From positions 124,001 to 188,000 of the forward strand of contig DATMBG010000044.1 of NCBI GenBank assembly GCA_035559535.1: a DNA stretch of 64,000 bases, read 5' to 3'. The number at the start of each line of letters is the position of its first letter. Position 1 is the first letter of the stretch. Of the stretch, positions 13,358 through 14,595 are shown piece after piece. Under the pieces are notes generated by a model. The model was given only the letters and a program-made list of their open reading frames with translations. It had not been told where the DNA came from and made no database searches. This stretch comes from Candidatus Limnocylindrales bacterium. GTDB lineage: Bacteria > Moduliflexota > Moduliflexia > Moduliflexales > JAUQPW01. A program made the translations under genes and the position numbers.

Positions 13358-13804
13358 ATGGAACCCTTACCAATCGGTATCGATGCACCTCGATTCTCCC
13401 TTCCGGCAACAGGTGGAGGAACCGTAGCCCTGGAAGATTTTTTGGGTCGAAAAAATCTGGTTCTCGTTTTCTACTGCAAAAATAAAACCCCAGGGTGAAA
13501 TAGACAACTCTCATCCCTGCGGGATGACAAGGAACAATTCGAACAATTGGATACGGAAATTCTAGGCATTAACCCGGGTTCTCTTAAATCCCATGAGAAT
13601 TATGTACGGGATCTTCAACTCAATTTTAAACTCCTGAGCGATTCTCAATGTACCATGACCAGGGCCTATAATGCCCTCAAAGAAGATGGTAAAAGTGTCC
13701 AGAGAACCGTTTACATTATAGATAAAACCGGAAAGATTCGATATGCAAAACAGGGTATGCCTTCAGATCAGGAACTTTTAGAAACTCTTAAATCCCTGGG
13801 TTAA
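13358..13804 (+). CDS. Selenocysteine-containing peroxiredoxin (TGA = Sec47)
   Basis: A 148-residue AhpC/TSA (BCP/PrxQ-like) peroxiredoxin read from the ATG at 13358 through an in-frame TGA at 13496-13498. Upstream, IGIDAPRFSLPATGG and LVLVFYCKNKTPG match the family; downstream, SSLRDDKEQFEQLDTEILGI and RTVYIIDKTGKIRYAKQG continue it without any frame change. The TGA stands exactly where the peroxidatic cysteine belongs in TPxC (here Thr44-Pro45-Gly46-Sec47). It is followed by a hairpin of bacterial SECIS shape (13511-13527). The enzyme would reduce peroxides in the cytoplasm. The usual proline four residues before Thr is Cys40. Standard gene callers would report only 13547-13804. Four genes follow in the same direction. 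Confidence 0.88.
13496..13527 (+). promoter_or_regulatory. Candidate bacterial SECIS element after the in-frame TGA
   Basis: A perfect 7-bp stem TCATCCC / GGGATGA (13511-13517 and 13521-13527) closes a TGC loop. The stem begins 12 nt after the TGA, and the loop starts about 20 nt after it. Published bacterial SECIS models ask for a small loop with a G in its first two positions about 16-37 nt from the UGA; the G is second here. The hairpin lies inside the coding sequence, as in bacteria. Confidence 0.75.
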
Positions 13805-13834: not shown

Positions 13835-14158
13835 ATGGAATGGCGTGAACTAAATCGGTTAAAGAAATTCTCTGACGAGAAGTTTCAAAAGATCAATGTG
13901 TTTGAAAGCGAACGAATGTTTTGCGATATTTACTGTTTCAAACCGGGCCAGGAACAAAAAATCCATAAACATGAAGGCTCCGACAAGATTTATTACATCT
14001 TAGAAGGGCAGGGTCGCTTCAAAGTTGGATCTGAAGAAAAAGAGTTTCGAGCCGGAACATCCATCTGGATTCCCCCAGGAGTTGAACACGGAGTCAGAAA
14101 CTCAGGATCGGACCCTCTGGTTACCCTGGTCTTTATGGCTCCTAAACCCTCCCACTAA
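13835..14158 (+). CDS. Cupin-domain protein
   Basis: A 107-residue single-cupin protein. Motif 1 (GQEQKIHKHEGSDKIYYILEG) offers His and Glu metal ligands, and motif 2 (AGTSIWIPPGVEHGVRNSG) gives the last His. It binds a metal and could be an isomerase, dioxygenase or sensor; the reaction cannot be read. It begins 30 nt after the selenoperoxiredoxin stop and is probably co-transcribed. Confidence 0.88.
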   Translation: MEWRELNRLKKFSDEKFQKINVFESERMFCDIYCFKPGQEQKIHKHEGSDKIYYILEGQGRFKVGSEEKEFRAGTSIWIPPGVEHGVRNSGSDPLVTLVFMAPKPSH

Positions 14159-14193: not shown

Positions 14194-14595
14194 ATGGCTG
14201 CAAAAATTTTCACTCTTGAAGAAGCTAACCGATTAATTCCGCAATTACGGGCTATCTTAACAGGAATCATGGAGAAGCGAGACAAAATCGCCGCCCGGCA
14301 AAAGGAAGTTTATGCGATTCGCAGGATTATAGACGGTAATGGGCATAATCCAGAAGCTTTAGGCTTCGCGGCCAAGGAACGGGAGTTAAAAGAGCTGATC
14401 AACCAACTCAATGAAGATATTGAAAAGATCAACAGTTTAGGATGTGAACTTAAAGATATTCACCTGGGTTTAGTGGATTTTCGCTCTATTCGGGAAGGAC
14501 GAGAGGTTTACCTGTGCTGGAAGTTCGATGAAGATGAGATCAGTTTCTGGCATGATCTCCACACCGGATTTGCCGGTAGACAACCCCTTTTTTGA
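14194..14595 (+). CDS. DUF2203 family protein
   Basis: A 133-residue soluble, helical protein. It opens with KIFTLEEANRLIPQLRAI and ends with LGLVDFRSIREGREVYLCWK and ISFWHDLHTGFAGRQPL, the signature segments of the DUF2203 family, whose role is unknown. It lies 35 nt downstream of the cupin gene. Confidence 0.88.
   Translation: MAAKIFTLEEANRLIPQLRAILTGIMEKRDKIAARQKEVYAIRRIIDGNGHNPEALGFAAKERELKELINQLNEDIEKINSLGCELKDIHLGLVDFRSIREGREVYLCWKFDEDEISFWHDLHTGFAGRQPLF

Follow-up and report, generated by a model that had tools for sequence, protein, structure and literature searches.

A predicted selenocysteine peroxiredoxin with cysteine in place of the active-site motif proline

Introduction

Does an in-frame TGA break a peroxiredoxin gene, or does it encode the catalytic residue of the protein? 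The question arises in a 64,000-nucleotide stretch of DNA from Candidatus Limnocylindrales bacterium (contig DATMBG010000044.1, positions 124,001 to 188,000; hereafter the window). A standard list of open reading frames holds solely a truncated piece of this gene, 13547-13804, with a TTG start; this is exactly the piece to which a sequence-only reading had expected standard annotation to reduce it. Sec-containing peroxiredoxins (Prx, PF00578/COG1225, TxxU) have been described (PMC1088965, PMC1794560) and are listed in PMC13188914.

Results

When TGA was translated as selenocysteine (Sec, U), positions 13358-13804 gave 148 residues and ended in TAA; the only TGA inside the frame was at 13496-13498. 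The following features were assigned:

13358-13804, plus strand: predicted selenoprotein peroxiredoxin gene, assigned from the TGA=U translation, a Pfam AhpC-TSA match and purifying selection upstream as well as downstream of the TGA
13496-13498, plus strand: in-frame TGA, putative Sec47, at the peroxidatic Cys position (T44-P-G-U47), assigned from alignments and the sister copy
13703-13705, plus strand: codon for Arg116, the conserved active-site Arg of peroxiredoxins, in a nearly invariant column (Arg in 63 of 69 loci)

The Pfam AhpC-TSA model, searched with Cys at residue 47, matched the product over the whole domain (2.9e-34; 118 bits against a cut-off of 26), and the closest solved structures were AhpC/TSA and BCP-type proteins (1.8e-20 and 1.2e-17). 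Translation and whole-domain match agree with the earlier claim that the frame is continuous on either side of the TGA. The other active-site residues, Thr44 and Arg116, are retained. We confirm that 13358-13804 is a complete BCP/PrxQ-like AhpC/TSA peroxiredoxin gene and that the TGA is its sole interruption.

The position of the TGA within the protein is specific. Across 32 aligned homologues, the residue-47 column was invariantly Cys or TGA, and in 69 loci its codon was TGC in 34, TGT in 25 and TGA in 10. TAA, TAG or a different residue never occurred there, which is the outcome of the homologue alignment that the sequence-only reading had suggested as a check. The TGA also proved to occupy the peroxidatic Cys of TPxC, where that reading had placed it: the site reads TPGU, the TxxU arrangement (TGA at the peroxidatic Cys) that marks a Sec-containing peroxiredoxin.

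We compared the gene with its counterpart in the sole other genome of the same genus that was examined, a separate assembly (contig JAUQPW010000074.1). The two proteins are 95% identical in amino acids and the TGA position is the same. Upstream of the TGA, 9 codon changes were synonymous and 0 nonsynonymous; downstream, the numbers were 15 and 7. Third positions accounted for 24 of the 32 base changes, and dN/dS was about 0.08 overall and 0.12 downstream of the TGA. This pattern indicates that the peroxiredoxin frame is translated and under selection both before and after the TGA.

These observations bear on the idea that a recent Cys-to-stop mutation has left the locus a pseudogene or a truncated peroxiredoxin. 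Such an event would require only one base change, from TGC or TGT to TGA, and would account for the one in-frame stop, but a second species-level genome has the identical TGA, purifying selection extends to both sides of it with no further frame break, three paralogues have TGA at the equivalent column and the genome encodes a full Sec machinery (below). A chance nonsense mutation at the catalytic codon had already been judged unlikely, and with the TGA kept in the sister copy and the frame under selection we regard it as very improbable.

The host had been expected to carry selA/B/C/D, and a genome search returned the complete set. We found tRNA-Sec (74.5 bits, anticodon TCA), selA (622 bits), selB (408.6 bits, with the SECIS-binding winged helices SelB-wing_2 and SelB-wing_3) and selD (388.6 bits), in which a TGA also occurs in frame, in ECGGU; all four were above their cut-offs. 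The selD gene (L018, 1477-2427) thus likely encodes a selenoprotein itself; Sec-containing SelD is widespread among Sec-using bacteria (PMC1794560).

UGA might instead be read as a residue other than Sec, whether because the code has been reassigned or by ordinary read-through, and either would leave the frame open on both sides as observed. This, too, is highly unlikely: TGA ends 9 of the 29 long open reading frames in the window and serves there as an ordinary stop, which shows that the code has not been reassigned throughout, and a scan of the window for other in-frame TGA genes, judged by eye, gave none that was convincing beyond the peroxiredoxin. Moreover, every homologue without TGA has Cys at the residue-47 column, and the Sec system is present. 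Least probable is a sequencing or assembly error for TGC or TGT, for although this is a draft genome of 58 contigs, the separately assembled JAUQPW010000074.1 has TGA at the equivalent place, which makes an error at 13496-13498 very unlikely.

We conclude that 13358-13804 almost certainly encodes a BCP/PrxQ-like AhpC/TSA peroxiredoxin in which UGA 13496-13498 is read as Sec. What argues strongly for this reading is that the TGA coincides with the catalytic column, that a second genome retains it and that the Sec machinery is present; the frame, the TGA position, the conservation, the selection, the machinery genes and a hairpin are all seen directly in the DNA. The Sec peroxiredoxin reading first made from the sequence is therefore supported, and none of the contrary evidence named alongside it turned up.

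The hairpin lies shortly after the TGA:

13511-13527, plus strand: putative bacterial SECIS hairpin, TCATCCC[TGC]GGGATGA, assigned from its 7 bp, loop geometry, the sister copy and a published model

It has 7 Watson-Crick pairs and a 3-nt loop, TGC, with G at loop position 2. From the TGA to the loop is 19 nt, and the first 49 nt past the TGA have a minimum free energy (MFE) of -9.4 kcal/mol. These values fall within the published limits for bacterial SECIS elements (loop of 3-9 nt, stem of 4-16 bp, G in loop positions 1-2, spacing of 16-37 nt, MFE <= -7.5; PMC13188914), which bears out the earlier description of a perfect 7-bp hairpin with a TGC loop at SECIS distance. The hairpin is identical in the JAUQPW010000074.1 copy. 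A comparable hairpin of 7 Watson-Crick pairs within the permitted spacing follows 0.85% of the 1990 TGA triplets on both strands of the window, and 2.4% of synonymous recodings of the codons at the hairpin would create one, so that by itself the hairpin is no more than moderate evidence. Over a stretch of 56 nt, the folding energy was unexceptional (z -0.63). An Rfam SECIS_1 search found no match in this genome and none in any control genome either. Hairpins after the TGA in the paralogues at C10 and C22 fit the simple SECIS model less strictly.

The motif of Sec peroxiredoxins has been given as PxxxTxxU (PMC13188914). We therefore list the codon at its first position:

13475-13477, plus strand: TGC codon for Cys40, at the motif-Pro position of PxxxTxxC/U, a possible resolving residue, assigned from a 133-row alignment

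The motif Pro, which is highly conserved and lies outside the TxxU definition, is not present in the window protein, which has Cys40 at this position. The alignment comprised 60 Cys rows and 73 Sec rows, some of which duplicate one gene; Pro occupied the motif column in 116 of these 133 rows, and Cys occurred there solely in the window protein and its JAUQPW010000074.1 sister. Among the Sec rows, with the same duplication, the column held Val in 6/73 and Leu in 2/73. The sequence-only reading was correct in placing TPxC and the TGA, but the replacement of the motif Pro by Cys went unnoticed. Five residues after the peroxidatic position, Cys was found in 43 of the 60 Cys rows and 35 of the 73 Sec rows, and Ser in the window protein. 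A rule that Sec forms never keep this Cys was discarded on account of those 35 rows. Cys98 was also considered as the resolving residue but ruled out, since the sister has Arg at that position and the Cys is not conserved. The unusual feature of the protein in these alignments is Cys40 in place of the motif Pro, alongside the absent resolving Cys at +5.

In peroxiredoxin structures the motif Pro adjoins the peroxidatic residue, and Cys40 could for this reason resolve oxidised Sec47. A tentative proposal, which we consider rather unlikely and which draws on two closely related sequences, is that Cys40 might act as an intrinsic resolving residue by pairing with Sec47 in a selenenylsulfide, in a CxxxTxxU site, which would place the resolving Cys inside the active-site loop. 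A single-sequence AlphaFold model had a pLDDT of 40, too low for C40-U47 geometry or a fold search.

Downstream of the peroxiredoxin we noted a second gene:

13835-14158, plus strand: small cupin gene (Pfam Cupin_2, 2.1e-19), 30 bp downstream of the peroxiredoxin, possible operon partner

By eye, a cupin also stands beside the peroxiredoxin in JAUQPW010000074.1, read as the reverse complement. On the same strand and with short gaps, the window cupin is followed by a 133-aa open reading frame (14194-14595) that matched no NCBIfam model.

Discussion

We infer Sec insertion, peroxidase activity and a resolving step from the sequence, and the steps may be pictured as follows. SelB with Sec-tRNA-Sec would bind the hairpin 19 nt past the UGA, and the ribosome would then read 13496-13498 as Sec. 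Together with Thr44 and Arg116, Sec47 would attack hydroperoxides and be converted to a selenenic acid. Since the BCP-type Cys five residues later is absent, the thiol that resolves oxidised Sec47 would be either Cys40, at the motif-Pro position, or an external one.

The window protein resembles the Sec peroxiredoxin family (PF00578/COG1225) in fold family, in Sec at the peroxidatic position and in the Thr three residues earlier, and differs from its PxxxTxxU motif (PMC13188914) in reading CxxxTxxU. It is also close to bacterial BCP/PrxQ, the thioredoxin-dependent thiol peroxidase: its best NCBIfam model is PRK09437 (80 bits, against a model cut-off of 140) and its best solved relatives are AhpC/TSA and BCP-type proteins, but it has Sec for Cys and is without the Cys five residues later. 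PrxU is a Sec peroxiredoxin. The PrxU type (NF040737, peroxi_PrxU) is related, but the window protein is shorter and scores 35.8 bits, below the cut-off of 270, and is therefore not a PrxU equivalog.

TGA-containing relatives are numerous. The host genome contains another three TxxU peroxiredoxin genes, each of which has its TGA at the equivalent column, and 5 of the 14 AhpC-TSA matches in this genome contain TGA; the fifth of these lies at C32 (13457-13783, minus strand). Relatives bearing TGA occurred in all four genomes of the phylum examined (4/4). In two of them (G002 and G003) the TGA falls at the Thr44 column in a UxxC motif, which makes these proteins Prx-like of another described type. 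In another phylum, 74 of 85 genomes had a match, with TGA in most among the matches listed. A plasmid search gave remote annotated relatives only. Sec peroxiredoxins are thus common in the genome sets searched and belong to an already described family; the earlier statement that they are known in a few bacteria does not hold, and the locus is less novel than was claimed.

Standard annotation would lose or truncate the window peroxiredoxin and the three other TxxU peroxiredoxins of its genome. Their recognition adds a poorly known lineage (four genomes examined) to the Sec-using bacteria, and the active site offers a natural test of Pro-to-Cys replacement in a peroxiredoxin.

We also observed tandem peroxiredoxins in the phylum of genome G042 (loci L028 and L097-L126), many of them of about 335-345 residues. 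Each of their domains has an in-frame TGA, the two being about 150 codons apart, for example at residues 86 and 236 in L028 and 83 and 233 in L110; two AhpC-TSA domains were confirmed in L100. Prx is entered with one Sec in PMC13188914. The second domain of many of these tandems reads GRGU or GTGU, with Gly replacing the catalytic Thr.
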